From Alphaproteobacteria bacterium (lineage in GTDB: Bacteria; Pseudomonadota; Alphaproteobacteria; DSM-16000; Inquilinaceae), in NCBI GenBank assembly GCA_028281985.1, contig JANQIU010000360.1, positions 1-33,701 on the forward strand: a stretch of 33,701 nucleotides of DNA, given 5' to 3'. Positions 14,848 to 25,018 of the stretch are shown here, piece after piece (within the stretch, counting starts at the first letter, position 1; each line of letters begins with the position of its first letter). The position numbers were made by a program, and so were the translations under genes. The notes beneath the pieces are model-generated. The model was not told the origin of the DNA, made no database searches, and worked only from the letters and a program-made list of their open reading frames with translations.

Positions 14848-15492
14848 GTGTCGTTGCCGATGGGGTCACTGCCGGTACGGGTCGCCGAGTTGATGTGTTC
14901 GCGGCTGTGCCACGACCTGATCAGTCCGGTGGGCGCCATCAACAACGGCGTCGAACTGGTCTCCGAACTGGGACCGGCCGAAACGGTCGAGGCCATGGAC
15001 CTGATCGCCGACAGCGGCCTGCGGGCCGCCGCGCGTCTGCAACTCTATCGCCTGGCCTACGGTGCCGCCGGCGGTCAGGCGGGGATCGGCCTGGACGAGG
15101 CGGCGGAGGCGGTTCGGCGCTACCTGTCCTTCACAAGGCTCACATTTGACGGGTTTCCCGCCGCCGAACGGCTTCCCGACCCCGTGCCGGCCGGAACCGC
15201 GAAGATGGTGGCCAACACCGTTCTGTTGGCGGAAGAATGCGCGCGGATCGGCGGCGAACTTTCTGTCGGCGTCGAGGGCGATACACTCCTGTTTGTTGTT
15301 CGGGGCCGAAATGCTGACCTGTCGAGCGATGCCTCGGAGGCGCTGTCGGGGAAGACGCCGCCAGAGGACCTGACGGCCCGGACGGTACAAGCTTATGTTG
15401 CCGGTCAGTTGGCGATACACTACGGATTTGCTCTGGATTGCAGTGCAAACAGTGACGGACAGGTAACTCTCTCCCTGCGTTTGAATTCCTAA
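14848..15492 (+). CDS. chpT: Histidine phosphotransferase ChpT
   Basis: A 214-residue phosphotransferase. In the alphaproteobacterial cell-cycle relay it carries phosphate from the receiver of the hybrid kinase CckA to CtrA and CpdR. The phosphorylated His is H22 in SRLCHDLISPVGAINNG, the hallmark of the ChpT family, in which the His sits on a DHp-like helix. The C-terminal half resembles a degenerate HATPase fold and shows no nucleotide-binding G boxes. The GTG start has AAGGAGG 8 nt upstream. The che operon begins about 230 bp downstream on the same strand and ctrA is 7 kb away, so two of the three relay proteins are in this window; CckA is not. Confidence 0.92.
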   Translation: MSLPMGSLPVRVAELMCSRLCHDLISPVGAINNGVELVSELGPAETVEAMDLIADSGLRAAARLQLYRLAYGAAGGQAGIGLDEAAEAVRRYLSFTRLTFDGFPAAERLPDPVPAGTAKMVANTVLLAEECARIGGELSVGVEGDTLLFVVRGRNADLSSDASEALSGKTPPEDLTARTVQAYVAGQLAIHYGFALDCSANSDGQVTLSLRLNS

Positions 15493-15593: not shown

Positions 15594-15622
15594 TTGTCCT
15601 AGACTTTACAGGTTCTTAATCA
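15594..15622 (+). promoter_or_regulatory. Candidate sigma70-type promoter of the che operon
   Basis: TTGTCC (15594-15599), 17 nt, then TAATCA (15617-15622). A small dyad AAGCG-CTGAT-CGCTT (15580-15594) abuts the -35 element. It lies about 100 bp upstream of the cheA start. The match to consensus is moderate, so this is a suggestion. Confidence 0.3.
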
Positions 15623-15724
15623 GTTCCTGCGAGGGTCGCTCAATGGCGGCGACGGGTACCCGGCCCGCTGCCTCCCAGCGTCGGTTTTCGACTCACTATG
15701 CCACCGGTCAGCGGAGATGCCGCC

Positions 15725-18469
15725 ATGGACGACCTGCTCAGCGAATTTCTTACTGAGACTTCTGAGAACCTGTCAGTACTTGACGTTGAGCTGGTAAAGC
15801 TTGAACAGAATCCCAATGATCCTGGCCTTCTGGGCAACATCTTCCGCCTGGTGCATACCATCAAAGGGACTTGCGGTTTTCTCGGTTTGCCGCGGCTCGA
15901 GGGCGTGGCCCATGCTGCGGAGAATGTGCTCGGGAAGTTCCGCGAGGGTGAGCTTGAAGTCACCGAGAGCGCCGTCACGGTGGTTCTTGAGGCCCTGGAT
16001 CGCATCAAGCTGATCGTATCCGGGTTGGAGGCGACCGAGCAGGAACCCGATGGCGACGATGTTGATCTGATTGCCCGACTGAATGCAGTGGCCGATGGCG
16101 GGGCCTCCGATATGCCGGTCGGGGCTGGCGACGCGGTGGCAGACGAAACGGGGATCGAAGACGAAGCGGAACTGGACATGGCGGCTGCCATGGCCGCCGC
16201 CGACGATGCGGTGACCGAAGACGGGGATGTGGCGAGCCCGGCCGAAGATGATGCGGTCCCGGACGACGACGCATTCGCCGAAATGGCGCCGGCCAGCGAG
16301 CCGCCGCCGGCGCCTGAGCCGACCGCACCGTCTGCGCCGGTCGTGAAGGCGAGCCCGCCTGCGGTGGCTGAGCAGCGCGACACCAAGGATGGGCCGGTCG
16401 AAGCGGCGGAATCCGCGGTCGCCAACCAGTCGATCCGGGTCAACGTGGATCTGCTTGAAAACCTGATGACCACGGTGTCGGAGCTGGTGCTGACCCGCAA
16501 TCAGCTGCTCCAGATCCTTCGCGGCCAGAAGGAAAGCGAATTTGCCGCGCCGCTGCAGCGGTTGAACCACGTCACCTCGGAGCTGCAGGAAGGGGTGATG
16601 AAGACCCGCATGCAGCCGATCGGTAACGCGTGGGCTAAATTGCCGCGGCTGATCCGCGATCTGAGCCATGACCTCGGCAAGAAAATCGAGCTGCAGATGT
16701 TCGGCCAGGACACCGAGCTGGATCGCCAGGTGCTGGAGCTGATCAAGGATCCGCTGACCCATATGGTCCGGAATTCGGCCGACCACGGCATCGAACTCCC
16801 GGCCGACCGGATCGCCGCCGGCAAGCCGGAAACCGGCGTCGTCCGCCTGAACGCCTTCCATGAAGGCGGACACATCATCATCGAAATCACGGATGATGGT
16901 CAGGGGCTGGCATGCGAGAAGCTGAAGGCCAAAGCCGTCGCGAACGGTCTGGCGACCGAGTCCGAACTAGCGACGATGAGCGAGTCGCAGATCCAGCAGT
17001 TCATCTTCAAAGCTGGTTTCTCAACGGCGGAGAAGGTGACCAGCGTGTCGGGCCGCGGCGTCGGCATGGATGTGGTCCGAACCAACATCGAGAAGATCGG
17101 TGGCGCGATCGAGCTGAAGTCGGCGGAAGGGCGCGGGTCGACCTTCGTCATCAAGATCCCGCTGACGCTGGCCATCGTTTCGGCCCTGGTGGTGGAAGCC
17201 GCCGGCGAGCGGTTCGCCATCCCACAGATCAGCGTGGTGGAACTGGTGCGCGCAGGCGGCCATTCGGAGCATACGGTGGAGCGGCTCAACGGCGCCCGGG
17301 TGCTGCGGCTGCGGGACCGGTTGCTTCCGCTGGTCAGCCTGCGGGACCTGCTGCGGCTGAACACCTCGGATACCGAGGATCAGGAGACATTCATCGTCGT
17401 CGCCCAGGTGGGCACCTACACCTTCGGCATCGTCGTCGACCGGGTGTTCGATACCGAGGAGATCGTGGTCAAGCCGGTGGCGCCGCTGCTGCGCCATATC
17501 GAGATGTTCTCCGGCAACACCATCCTGGGTGACGGCAGCGTCATCATGATCCTGGACCCCAACGGAATCGCGTCGGCAACCGGCGAAATCACCCTGGCCG
17601 AGTCCATGGAGACGAGCACGACGGCCGAGACGCGGGCCTCTTCGGAGGACAAAGTGGCCCTTCTGCTGTTCCAGGCCGGCGGTGGTGCGCCGAAGGCCGT
17701 CCCCCTGGCACTGGTTGCCCGCCTGGAGGACATCGAACTGGCCAAAGTCGAAGCCTCCGTCGGCCAGCTTGTCGTCCAGTACCGCGGCCGCTTGATGCCG
17801 CTGGTCCCCTTCGATCCGGGGTTCATGCTGGAGCCCGAAGGACGGCGTCCGGTCCTGGTCTTCGCCGACGGCGATCAGTCGATGGGCCTGATCGTCGACG
17901 AAATCGTCGACATCGTCGAAGAGTCGCTGAACGTGGAGCTGACCGGCGAACAACATGGGCTGCTGGGCAGCGCCATCATCGCCGGCAAGGCCACCGACGT
18001 CATCGATGCCGGCACCTACCTGACCCAGGCCTATCGCGACTGGTTCGGCTCGAACAGCGAAGCCCTTGTGGACCATCGGACGCATCGGGTCCTGCTGGTC
18101 GATGACAGCCCGTTCTTCCGCAACATGCTGGTGCCGCTGTTGGGTGTTGCCGGCTACGAAGTCGTCACCGTCGGCAGCGCGGACGAGGCGCTGAAGCTGT
18201 GCGAGAATGGCGACACCTTCGATGTCATCGTCAGCGATATCGAGATGCCGGGCACCAACGGGTTCGATTTCGCCCGGATGGTGCGCGACGGCAGCCGCTG
18301 GGCGGACCTGCCGATCGTTGCGCTTTCCTCGCACGCGACGCCGGCCGATCTTGACCGCGGGCGGCAAGCCGGGTTTACCGACTACGTGGCAAAGTTCGAC
18401 CGCGAAGCGTTGCTCATGACCTTGTCGCAGACTTTGGCTGAAGCCCAGGAACACGAGGCGGCGGCCTGA
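15725..18469 (+). CDS. cheA: Hybrid chemotaxis kinase CheA (Hpt - dimerisation - HATPase - CheW - CheW - REC)
   Basis: A 914-residue chemotaxis kinase. The Hpt domain (about 1-105) has H44 in RLVHTIKGTCGF. A long acidic, Pro/Ala-rich linker (about 125-230) stands where the CheY-binding P2 domain would be, and no folded P2 is apparent. The dimerisation helices start at about 235. The ATPase domain has MVRNSADHGIE (N box) near 350, ITDDGQGL (G1) and SGRGVGMDVV (G2) near 441. A first CheW-like domain spans about 477-610 and a second about 642-780. A CheY-like receiver follows from about 788, with phosphoacceptor D838. The start at 15725 is preferred over 15698 because CGGAG precedes it. It is first in cheA-cheY-cheB-cheR. 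No separate cheW is present. Confidence 0.95.
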   Translation: MDDLLSEFLTETSENLSVLDVELVKLEQNPNDPGLLGNIFRLVHTIKGTCGFLGLPRLEGVAHAAENVLGKFREGELEVTESAVTVVLEALDRIKLIVSGLEATEQEPDGDDVDLIARLNAVADGGASDMPVGAGDAVADETGIEDEAELDMAAAMAAADDAVTEDGDVASPAEDDAVPDDDAFAEMAPASEPPPAPEPTAPSAPVVKASPPAVAEQRDTKDGPVEAAESAVANQSIRVNVDLLENLMTTVSELVLTRNQLLQILRGQKESEFAAPLQRLNHVTSELQEGVMKTRMQPIGNAWAKLPRLIRDLSHDLGKKIELQMFGQDTELDRQVLELIKDPLTHMVRNSADHGIELPADRIAAGKPETGVVRLNAFHEGGHIIIEITDDGQGLACEKLKAKAVANGLATESELATMSESQIQQFIFKAGFSTAEKVTSVSGRGVGMDVVRTNIEKIGGAIELKSAEGRGSTFVIKIPLTLAIVSALVVEAAGERFAIPQISVVELVRAGGHSEHTVERLNGARVLRLRDRLLPLVSLRDLLRLNTSDTEDQETFIVVAQVGTYTFGIVVDRVFDTEEIVVKPVAPLLRHIEMFSGNTILGDGSVIMILDPNGIASATGEITLAESMETSTTAETRASSEDKVALLLFQAGGGAPKAVPLALVARLEDIELAKVEASVGQLVVQYRGRLMPLVPFDPGFMLEPEGRRPVLVFADGDQSMGLIVDEIVDIVEESLNVELTGEQHGLLGSAIIAGKATDVIDAGTYLTQAYRDWFGSNSEALVDHRTHRVLLVDDSPFFRNMLVPLLGVAGYEVVTVGSADEALKLCENGDTFDVIVSDIEMPGTNGFDFARMVRDGSRWADLPIVALSSHATPADLDRGRQAGFTDYVAKFDREALLMTLSQTLAEAQEHEAAA

Positions 18470-21002: not shown

Positions 21003-21054
21003 CGCCCGACAGGGCGGCGCACGGGTGCCAGCCGTCCTGAGCCGGCCGGTTCAG
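21003..21054. terminator. Dyads between cheR and the ceramidase-like gene
   Basis: CGCCC-GACA-GGGCG (21003-21016) begins at the cheR stop, and a near-perfect palindrome built around CCGGCCGG (21037-21054) reaches the stop of the convergent gene. Neither has a T tract. They are plausible end signals for the two convergent transcripts. Confidence 0.35.
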
Positions 21055-22076
21055 CCCGACTGTGCGGTCCGGGAAACGGACAAGTCCGCCGGCGGCTGAA
21101 CCGAAAGCCTGCCGGTCACCGGCGTCTCGCCCTCATAGCCCTCGAGCAGCATCGACCCATCGGCCGGGCAGGCGTCCATGGCCAGGCGCGTGCGCTCGTT
21201 CAGGATGGGCGGACGGACCCAGCCGAACCCGGGAACCTCGCTCGGTACCGTCTCGCGCATTGCCGCCAGCCGCTCCGATGAGAGGATCGAATGGGAGCGG
21301 CCCCGAAACTCGCTGTTCAGCCAATGGTTGGTCACGCACCGTGCGGGGGTGTGGACGCGGGCACGGTTGGGCATCCGTTCGATAACCGCGCTGTGGTCGG
21401 GCCGTGTTCCGACGATCGTGAAGATTACCGGAAGGGTGACCGCTGTTTCGCTCAACCACGCGCGGGCTTCGTCGAAGCCACGGCAGTGCCGGAAAACGTC
21501 CCGGAGCAGCATCACCGGTGGCCGGGCGCCCGACCGCCAGGCGATGCGGCGAGCGACCAGCCAGTCGCCGGGCAAACCAAAGCGCGTGAGCGGCCCGGGG
21601 GCCTGGTTGATGGCGATGGCGAAACGGCCGGGCGCCATGCCCTGGACGCTGCCGACAAATCCGGGCCAGGTGATGTTGAACCAGGATCCTGCCGGATCGT
21701 CGATCTCCGCCACCACCACGGCCGAACCGAGGGCCTTCAGGCCCCAATCGAGCGTGCGCAGCAGGCGTGGCCGCCCGTCCGGCCCGACATGCGCGGCCGA
21801 AGTGCAGGCCCATTCGTAGCTGAGATTGAGCATCCACGCGCCGGGCTGGCCCACGCGTCGGGCCACCTCGGCGATCTCGTCTGCTTCGGCCAGCCCGTTG
21901 CGTTGGGCCCAGTGTCGGGAAAGCCGGTCGCCAAGCGCGATGACCGGAACGGTGTAGCCGCGCCGGGCCGCCCGCAGCACGGTCGCCAACCGGTCCGGAC
22001 AGCGCGACACCAGTGTGGGCAGCCCTTCGCGCCCCAAACGGACCAATGGGATGGTCGGAAGCAGATCCTGGGTCAT
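21051..22076 (-). CDS. Acid ceramidase / NAAA-like Cys-Ntn hydrolase
   Basis: A 341-residue protein, not a standard motility gene. The block NLSYEWACTSA puts a Cys-Thr-Ser at C91. R107 and D110 follow in LLRTLDW, so the Cys-x15-Arg-x2-Asp spacing is that of the acid ceramidase / N-acylethanolamine acid amidase and C45 acyltransferase group of N-terminal nucleophile hydrolases. GTRPDHSAVIER and VTNHW (N250) are further family-like blocks. Such enzymes cleave themselves before the Cys and hydrolyse amide bonds of acylated amines. There is no signal peptide, so it should be cytosolic. The ATG at 22076 has GAGAGG upstream; a start at 22145 is less supported. It lies downstream of ctrA on the same strand with a terminator-like hairpin between them. 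Substrate unknown. Confidence 0.7.
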   Translation of the reverse strand: MTQDLLPTIPLVRLGREGLPTLVSRCPDRLATVLRAARRGYTVPVIALGDRLSRHWAQRNGLAEADEIAEVARRVGQPGAWMLNLSYEWACTSAAHVGPDGRPRLLRTLDWGLKALGSAVVVAEIDDPAGSWFNITWPGFVGSVQGMAPGRFAIAINQAPGPLTRFGLPGDWLVARRIAWRSGARPPVMLLRDVFRHCRGFDEARAWLSETAVTLPVIFTIVGTRPDHSAVIERMPNRARVHTPARCVTNHWLNSEFRGRSHSILSSERLAAMRETVPSEVPGFGWVRPPILNERTRLAMDACPADGSMLLEGYEGETPVTGRLSVQPPADLSVSRTAQSG

Positions 22077-22270
22077 GACGACGCCTCTCCGGCTCCGGCG
22101 TAGGCGCTGCGCCAGACCCGGGGGCTGGGTGGCGCCAACCGGCACGTTTCCGGGATATGGGCGTTTGCTTGATCGCAGGCAACGGCACGCCGAGCGCCAA
22201 GATCAACGCGACGGCGCAGCCGGACGGTGCCCAGGGGACCGGTGGGATCGCAGCGAACCGACGTCTGTCA

Positions 22271-23016: not shown

Positions 23017-23075
23017 GGTTTTGCTCCGCGTTGAAAGGCTTTAAAGGGGGACGGTTCCGACGCCGTCAGCACCGT

Positions 23076-23107
23076 CTCTTAACTTTAATGAAGATTAACG
23101 TTAAGAG
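23076..23107. promoter_or_regulatory. Inverted repeat with CtrA-like box in the ctrA-fliI divergent region
   Basis: CTCTTAAC (23076-23083) and GTTAAGAG (23100-23107) form a perfect 8-bp inverted repeat. The 16 bp between them are TTTA-N7-TTAAC, one mismatch from the CtrA consensus TTAA-N7-TTAAC. TTAA also occurs at 23041, 23079, 23085, 23095, 23101, 23120 and 23160, in a genome where it is otherwise rare. This is a likely CtrA-bound control region for ctrA itself and for fliI-fliJ. Confidence 0.6.
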
Positions 23108-23237
23108 GTAAACACATTGTTAATGCAGATCAGTTCGTGGGGTGTGGTTTTACCGCGCCTTAACCGAGGTCTGCGATGGTGGGAACCCGAGGGGCGCGCG
23201 ATGGCGGCCCCGTTCCCCCGTCAGGTCGGAGCCAGCC

Positions 23238-24590
23238 GTGCGGGCATTGCTGCGGTCGCTGCTCGACGAAATCGAAGGCATTCAGGAGACCAAGCTGTTC
23301 GGCCGAGTAACCTCGGTTCTCGGCCTGCTGGTCGAGGTCGGCGGTGTCGAACAGTATCTCTCCATCGGTGCACGATGCGTGGTGATCGCCCGTGGCGGGC
23401 GTCGCGTGCCCTGCGAGGTCGTCGGCTTCCGGGGCGGCCGGGCGCTGCTGATGCCGCTGGGGTCTATCGACGGCGTCGGTCTTGGCTGCCGCGCCGAGGT
23501 CGGCGAGCCGCAGCCGGCGATCTATCCCACCCAGGCCTGGTTGGGCCGGGTCGTCAACGCGCTTGGCGAACCGATCGACGGCAAAGGGCCGCTGCCCCAC
23601 GGCAATCATCCCGCGCCCCTGCGCAACACGGCCCCGCCGGCCAGCCAGCGGACGCGCGTCGGATCGAAATTCGATCTGGGCATCCGGGCGCTGAACACGT
23701 TCGTGACCATGTGCCAGGGGCAGCGCATGGGTATCTTCTCCGGATCCGGCGTGGGCAAGTCGATCCTGATGTCGATGATCGCCCGCTACACTTCCGCGCA
23801 GGTCAACGTCATCGGCCTGATCGGCGAGCGCGGGCGTGAGGTTCAGGAGTTTCTGGCCGACGACCTGGGCGAAGAGGGGCTGTCCCGCAGCGTCGTGGTT
23901 ATCGCGACATCGGACGAACCCCCGCTGATGCGGCGTCAGGCTGCCTACACCACCATGGCGATTGCCGAACACTTCCGCGACCAGGGGCTGCATGTGCTGT
24001 GCATGATGGACAGCATCACCCGGTTCGCGATGGCCCAGAGGGAGATCGGCCTGTCGGCCGGTGAGCCGCCGACCAGCAAGGGCTATCCGCCGACAACCTT
24101 CAGTGAGCTGCCGCGCCTCCTGGAACGCGCCGGGCCCGGAACCGGGGGCGGCGCAATCAGCGGCATCTTCACGGTTCTGGTGGAAGGGGACGACCACAAC
24201 GAGCCGATCGCCGACGCCGTGCGCGGCATTCTGGACGGGCATATCGTCATGGAACGGTCGATCGCCGAACGCGGCCGGTACCCGGCGATCAACGTGCTGA
24301 AATCCGTGTCGCGGACCCTTCCGGGCTGCAACACGGTCGAGGAGAACACCGTGGTCCAGCGGGCCAAGCAGGTTCTCGCCACCTATGAGGACATGGCGGA
24401 GATGATCCGGCTGGGGGCCTACCGCAAGGGGACGGACGCCAGCGTCGACCAGGCCATCGGCTTCTATCCGGCGATCGAGGCGTTCCTGAAGCAGGATAAG
24501 AAGGAGCGCACGGACATCGCCACCGGCCTGGCCGCCCTGGCCAATGTTCTTGGGCTGCCCGTGCCCGGTGCGGCGGAGGCGGCGTCGTGA
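23238..24590 (+). CDS. fliI: Flagellar export ATPase FliI
   Basis: The ATPase of the flagellar type III export apparatus, related to F1 beta. The protein has 450 residues from the GTG at 23238. I chose this over the open start at 23142 because GGAG is 6 nt upstream and the encoded N-terminus ([14 protein letters not shown]) fits the family; the extra 32 residues do not. The P-loop GSGVGKS is at 169-175, GERGREV follows, and Walker B VLCMMD ends at D258. The [17 protein letters not shown] block is typical of FliI/YscN. It overlaps fliJ by 4 nt and is divergent from ctrA. Confidence 0.96.
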
Positions 24591-25018
24591 CCGATCTGCA
24601 ACCGCTGATCCGCCTGCACCGCTGGCAGCTCGACGAGAAGCGGCGCGCCCTGGCCGAGTTGGAAGCGCTGTCCGACCGCCTTCACGAACAGGTGGGGCAA
24701 CTGGATGAAGAACTGGCCCGGGAGCAGGCATTCGCGGCCCAGGCGGCCGAACCGCCCCAGGGCTTTGGCGCCTATACGCAGGCGATGCTGGACCGCAAGT
24801 CCCGGCTGAACGAGTCCATTGAGGAAGTCCGCCAGCAGATTGCTACCTCGCGGGACCAGATTGCCGAAGCGTTTCAGGAGTTGAAGCGGTTCGAACTGGT
24901 TCAGGAGGACCGGGACCGGCGGGAAGCGGCGCGCCGCAAGCGCCGCGAAACCCAGACCTATGACGAGATCGGCACGTCGCGGCACCACCGCCGCAAGGAA
25001 GCCGGCGCAACGGATTAG
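24587..25018 (+). CDS. fliJ: Flagellar export protein FliJ
   Basis: A 143-residue, highly charged, almost wholly coiled-coil protein rich in Glu, Gln and Arg. Size, character and position directly after fliI mark it as FliJ, which contacts FliI and FlhA in the export gate, in the way the gamma subunit works in F1. The GTG start overlaps the fliI stop in GTGA, so it is translationally coupled. The C-terminal quarter is strongly basic ([13 protein letters not shown]). It is convergent with the FliK-like gene, 15 bp away. Confidence 0.88.

Follow-up and report, generated by a model that had tools for sequence, protein, structure and literature searches.

The ctrA–fliI locus and its TTAA cluster

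The window, that is the whole 33,701-nucleotide stretch of DNA analysed here, carries ctrA in divergent orientation to the flagellar genes fliI and fliJ (Table 1). CtrA (4qpj) is the top PDB match of the ctrA product, which has orthologues at 81–89% identity in the family. The fliI reading frame is open already from 23142, and its start is most likely the GTG at 23238, a placement based on the sequence, with GGAG upstream, and on where homology begins, so that the intergenic region measures about 221 bp. The gene chpT (14848–15492) lies in the same window, and the SciP and GcrA families are both encoded in the genome. The SciP family (DUF1153) is represented there by two genes (G000, contigs C267 and C211), and two such genes are also found in each of G007, G009, G010 and G015. 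The CheA protein encoded at 15698–18469 has a C-terminal receiver domain and is thus a CheA–receiver hybrid. Between a cheR-like gene and ctrA, an ORF of 364 aa (21051–22145) has no Pfam match; its product presumably looks, by sequence, like a penicillin-acylase-type amide hydrolase. Rfam gave no RNA element in the window.

The region between ctrA and fliI is marked by a cluster of TTAA words, at 23041, 23079, 23085, 23095, 23101, 23120 and 23160. The seven tetramers in about 120 bp described in the initial annotation are all present, and these 123 bp (23041–23163) hold 7 of the 12 TTAA words of the window. A count of 1.3 is expected after dinucleotide shuffling and 0.7 after base shuffling, and none of 5000 shuffles reached 7, which rules out chance or AT-richness as the sole cause. 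Within the cluster lie two CtrA-like pairs that had not been singled out, at 23109–23123 and 23149–23163. From the sequence the cluster looks like two separate CtrA promoters placed back to back, one reading into fliI on the plus strand and one into ctrA on the minus strand; the former would be an ordinary CtrA-type promoter and the latter one of somewhat new layout. Scans of the region for sigma-70 consensus promoters and for terminators returned no matches, and the -10 elements were consequently inferred from conserved spacing.

Table 1. Genes and predicted regulatory features of the window (. = no strand assigned)
Feature	Position	Strand	Remarks
CtrA box upstream of cheA, TTTAC-AGGTTC-TTAA	15605..15619	+	-10 GAGGGT at 15631-15636
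ctrA, response regulator with OmpR-type DNA-binding domain, 232 aa	22318..23016	-	Pfam Response_reg + Trans_reg_C
Dyad	23076..23107	.	Arms 23076-23089 / 23094-23107, 13/14 paired, loop GAAG, 32 bp
Extra flanking half-site, 6 bp from -4 half-site	23079..23082	.	Not at that position in relatives
-14/-4 half-site pair, TTAA-TCTTCA-TTAA (N6)	23085..23098	-	Over ctrA -10 and predicted start
Predicted -10 of ctrA, TAATCT	23092..23097	-	Follows the A27 + T31 rule
Extra flanking half-site, 6 bp from -14 half-site	23101..23104	.	Not at that position in relatives
CtrA box of ctrA promoter, TTAAC-AATGTG-TTTA	23109..23123	-	5' base at -39 of predicted start
CtrA box of fliI promoter, TTTAC-CGCGCC-TTAA(C)	23149..23163	+	5' base at -39 of predicted start
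Predicted -10 of fliI, GATGGT	23175..23180	+	Offset +26..+31 from box
fliI, flagellar export ATPase	23238..24590	+	Pfam ATP-synt_ab + T3SS_ATPase_C
fliJ	24587..25018	+	Pfam FliJ

Two predicted CtrA-type promoters and their conservation

Of 146 collected alphaproteobacterial ctrA loci, 94 show the divergent order of ctrA and fliI, and in 90 the two genes lie within 600 bp. It is seen as well in each of the eight family genomes whose neighbouring sequence is readable; the ninth CtrA-bearing family genome has only 241 bp of contig upstream of ctrA. The 90 closely spaced regions contain 407 TTAA words against 122 expected, a 3.3-fold enrichment among related genomes that are not phylogenetically independent. 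Start-to-start distances between these words peak at 10 and 11 bp (31 and 28 against 6.6), with further peaks at 13/14 and 23–25 bp. The distance of 11 corresponds to the canonical CtrA box and that of 10 to an N6 pair, the spacing of Caulobacter ctrA P2 (PMC3751295), which has also been noted in Magnetospirillum (PMC6180460). The distance of 6, which makes the dyad discussed below, shows no enrichment across the class (10 against 6.8).

On the fliI side the box TTTACCGCGCCTTAAC has one mismatch to TTAA-N7-TTAA(C) and is found in all nine CtrA-bearing family genomes. Its half-sites are 95% identical among eight of these, as opposed to 37% for their surroundings. Among fliI-strand N7 boxes of the class, an A at +27 occurs together with a T at +31 in 30/68, against a background of 7% (z=12), and boxes of the TTTAC type carry both bases in 20/33, a signal that places the -10 hexamer at +26 to +31 from the box. 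In the window GATGGT stands at this fixed spacing, from which a transcription start is predicted near 23188 and the 5' base of the box falls at -39, the reported place of an activating CtrA box in Caulobacter (PMC4287350). Activation of fliI by CtrA through this box would be expected.

The same geometry recurs in the genome of the window, whose regulon was sampled by pattern searches. TTAA-N7-TTAAC occurs 12 times, against four for the reversed control pattern, and 9 of the 17 oriented TTWAC-N6-TTAA sites have the -10 spacing seen at fliI. The genes adjoining such sites include cheA, fliI, an MCP gene (MCPsignal and HAMP), a dCache-HAMP chemoreceptor-like gene and flgI, as well as genes of Tad-pilus-like and GtrA-like type; in the case of flgI, the strand with the matching -10 is the one that points away from the gene. 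The cheA box with its correctly spaced -10 (15605–15636) is located directly after chpT.

The ctrA side is more elaborate. Its box TTAACAATGTGTTTA (23123–23109) has one mismatch and occupies offsets 0 and 11 of a family array in which ctrA-strand half-sites are placed at 0, 11, 25 and 35 bp. Six of the nine family genomes match this array at 15–16 of 16 positions and a seventh at 13. The array in the window scores 15/16, a value reached in none of 1000 reinsertion shuffles; since the offsets were read off the family sequences and then scored on them, P values within the family are descriptive. The half-site at offset 25 (23098–23095 in the window) is present in 7/9 family genomes, a conservation that could partly be for the -10 itself (TTAAnnT) because the two overlap, and the half-site at offset 35 in 6/9; two of the family genomes (L014 and L019) keep the box without the +25 half-site. 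Identity across the array is 80% for the half-sites and 38% for the spacers, so the half-sites have been kept while the DNA between them drifted. Conservation of the TTAA spacing in relatives, one of the tests set by the initial annotation, is borne out. The -10 rule (A at 27, T at 31) holds in 7/9 family ctrA arrays, ctrA-strand N7 boxes of the class give z=6.4 at the -10 offset, and a ctrA transcription start is predicted near 23084, relative to which the half-sites at offsets 25 and 35 would fall at -14 and -4.

More independent tests of the array are provided by counts outside the family and by the other sites of the window's genome. Beyond the family, enrichment is seen for half-sites at offset 34/35 (15 against 2.9 expected, null maximum 8) and, weakly, for those at offset 25 (6 against 1.3 expected, null maximum 7); neither offset is enriched when these boxes are read on the fliI strand. 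Nine further CtrA-type sites of the genome were inspected and none carries TTAA at -14 and -4, so the arrangement looks specific to ctrA. At Caulobacter ctrA promoters, full CtrA boxes at -39 activate and a TTAA at -14 represses (PMC4287350).

The inverted repeat and the proposed control of ctrA

An inverted repeat of 8 bp enclosing a CtrA-like box had been reported between the two genes. The repeats CTCTTAAC (23076–23083) and GTTAAGAG (23100–23107) do enclose TTTAATGAAGATTAAC (23084–23099), but the symmetry is longer than claimed, with arms of 14 nt. The core of this dyad is a perfect TTAA-N6-TTAA (23085–23098), so that a one-mismatch N7 reading is not needed. The probability of such symmetry by chance is approximately 0.003 when half-sites are re-placed at random and 0.01 when they are held fixed. 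None of the eight CtrA-bearing relatives has the dyad, their best 14-nt repeats pairing at 9–11 of 14 positions. A conserved dyad operator is thereby rejected; the symmetry is private to this genome and results from the conserved -14/-4 pair plus two flanking half-sites that are likewise private. The centres of the dyad and the fliI box are about 65 bp apart. Read on the fliI strand the dyad has no matching -10, with no T at +31, and its box is separated from the predicted fliI start by about 100 bp; activation of fliI from there is therefore not to be expected. It does cover the predicted -10 and start of ctrA, where bound CtrA should block transcription. Most likely, then, the dyad would belong to ctrA autoregulation as a repressor site, with no role in switching fliI.

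A pair of back-to-back CtrA-dependent promoters, of which the one for ctrA is self-limiting, is a reading that we hold to be rather probable; it builds on the positions of the sites, their conservation, the -10 geometry and the specificity of the array to ctrA. In the scheme proposed, which predicts CtrA binding, the two start positions and whether each site activates or represses, CtrA~P on the plus strand would occupy TTTAC-N6-TTAAC at -39 and recruit RNA polymerase to the -10, turning on fliI-fliJ. On the minus strand, CtrA~P at the -39 box of ctrA would raise its own transcription. At higher occupancy it would also fill the N6 pair at -14/-4, covering the -10 and the start, and thus turn ctrA off. 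In the window's genome the two further half-sites make this pair a 32-bp dyad, probably a stronger brake. The fuller version, in which ctrA throughout the family has a single promoter that is CtrA-activated at -39 and CtrA-blocked at -14/-4, with a four-half-site dyad as the blocking site in this genome, is put forward tentatively, at slightly less than an even chance.

Other readings differ in the sign or the target that they give to the ctrA sites. The -39 box and the -14/-4 pair could together purely repress ctrA, since a two-site layout of this kind, with cooperative binding of CtrA at a -35 and a -10 site, has been described for Caulobacter hemE Ps (PMC11264516) and the half-sites do cover the -10. 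This is unlikely, as activator-type boxes at fliI, cheA and other sites of the genome have the same -39 place, and hemE Ps itself is derepressed by partial CtrA depletion and less active on deeper depletion (PMC11264516), so that even this precedent has both signs. An equally minor prospect is that the N6 pair acts as in Caulobacter P2, being the -35 activator of a second, downstream ctrA promoter and the repressor of the upstream one. P2 is indeed a TTAA-N6-TTAA accompanied, at 1 bp, by an extra half-site (PMC3751295), a single motif in Caulobacter serves as the -39 of P2 and the -14 of P3 (PMC4287350), and N6 pairs on the ctrA strand of the class have a weak -10 signal at +26 (8/33). At the expected -10 position, however, the window reads GGTGCT, which lacks an A at the second base, and no common downstream -10 is seen in the family ctrA arrays.

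The two remaining readings centre on the dyad. In the initial annotation it was a single site of cooperative CtrA binding that would control ctrA and fliI jointly. Its wider idea of a CtrA-type cluster that serves ctrA, by feedback, as well as fliI finds support, and the dyad exceeds chance (P 0.003–0.01) with both genes within range. A single shared switch is nevertheless very improbable, given that relatives are without the dyad, that its box has the distance and missing T at +31 noted above, and that fliI has a box and a correctly placed -10 of its own. CtrA binds direct repeats, and symmetry as nearly perfect as this is commoner at the sites of homodimeric repressors, which would favour an operator for another regulator, for example MucR, which shares many CtrA promoters in Caulobacter, or a palindrome-binding repressor. 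Little credence is given to this, as the inner half-sites of the dyad belong to the conserved family CtrA array and the symmetry is kept in no relative.

Related systems and absence of CtrA

The arrangement can be compared with several characterised promoters. Caulobacter crescentus ctrA P1/P2/P3 likewise combine a CtrA site at -39 for activation with one at -14 for repression (PMC4287350), and P2 shares the TTAA-N6-TTAA with an extra neighbouring half-site (PMC3751295), but in Caulobacter activation and repression fall on separate promoters whereas here one predicted promoter carries both the -39 box and the -14/-4 pair. Rhodobacter sphaeroides flgB2p–fliI2p is also a divergent CtrA promoter pair whose two sites are independent, one of them serving fliI; its partner gene is flgB rather than ctrA, and no autoregulation is involved (PMC6180460). 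The fliI and cheA boxes share the box-to-start geometry of CtrA-activated full-site promoters (TTAA-N7-TTAA near -35); a difference is that most family members have TTTAC as the first half-site. Caulobacter hemE Ps has CtrA sites at -35 and -10 of one promoter, although the second is of N7 type (TTAA-N7-CTAA) and the gene served is hemE rather than ctrA (PMC11264516). The -39 activator, the -14 repressor and the N6 spacing are therefore already known from Caulobacter; what looks new is a predicted ctrA promoter that unites a -39 box with a -14/-4 pair, as a design shared across the family.

CtrA is absent from 8 of the 17 family genomes (G001–G007 and G013), and none of these eight has a FliI of the family type. 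One of them has a FliI at 54%, with a single TTAA and no 11-bp pair in the DNA upstream. ChpT and SciP are absent from seven of the eight, the exception being G007, and the joint absence of CtrA, family-type FliI and, mostly, ChpT and SciP suggests joint loss with the flagellum. In G007, ChpT and two SciP-like genes are present with no CtrA or FliI found, perhaps reflecting an assembly gap over the ctrA–fliI locus. Motility has been proposed as the original role of CtrA (PMC8116508, citing Greene et al. 2012). The ctrA–fliI promoter pair at most sampled alphaproteobacterial ctrA loci, and the shared absence of CtrA and the flagellar ATPase in part of the family, both fit such a motility-first role.

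No GANTC lies between ctrA and fliI in the window, in contrast to Caulobacter crescentus P1, which has a GANTC site, and methylation control as at P1 is therefore not expected. A ctrA promoter with a -39 box and a -14/-4 pair would be a simple, testable design for setting the CtrA level without GANTC methylation. If true, this would be a single-promoter ctrA homeostat, in place of the two or three promoters and the methylation used by Caulobacter. Across the window (1–33701) GANTC is about four-fold depleted, with 38 occurrences against 155 expected and all 100 shuffles higher, as expected of a genome with CcrM-type methylation.
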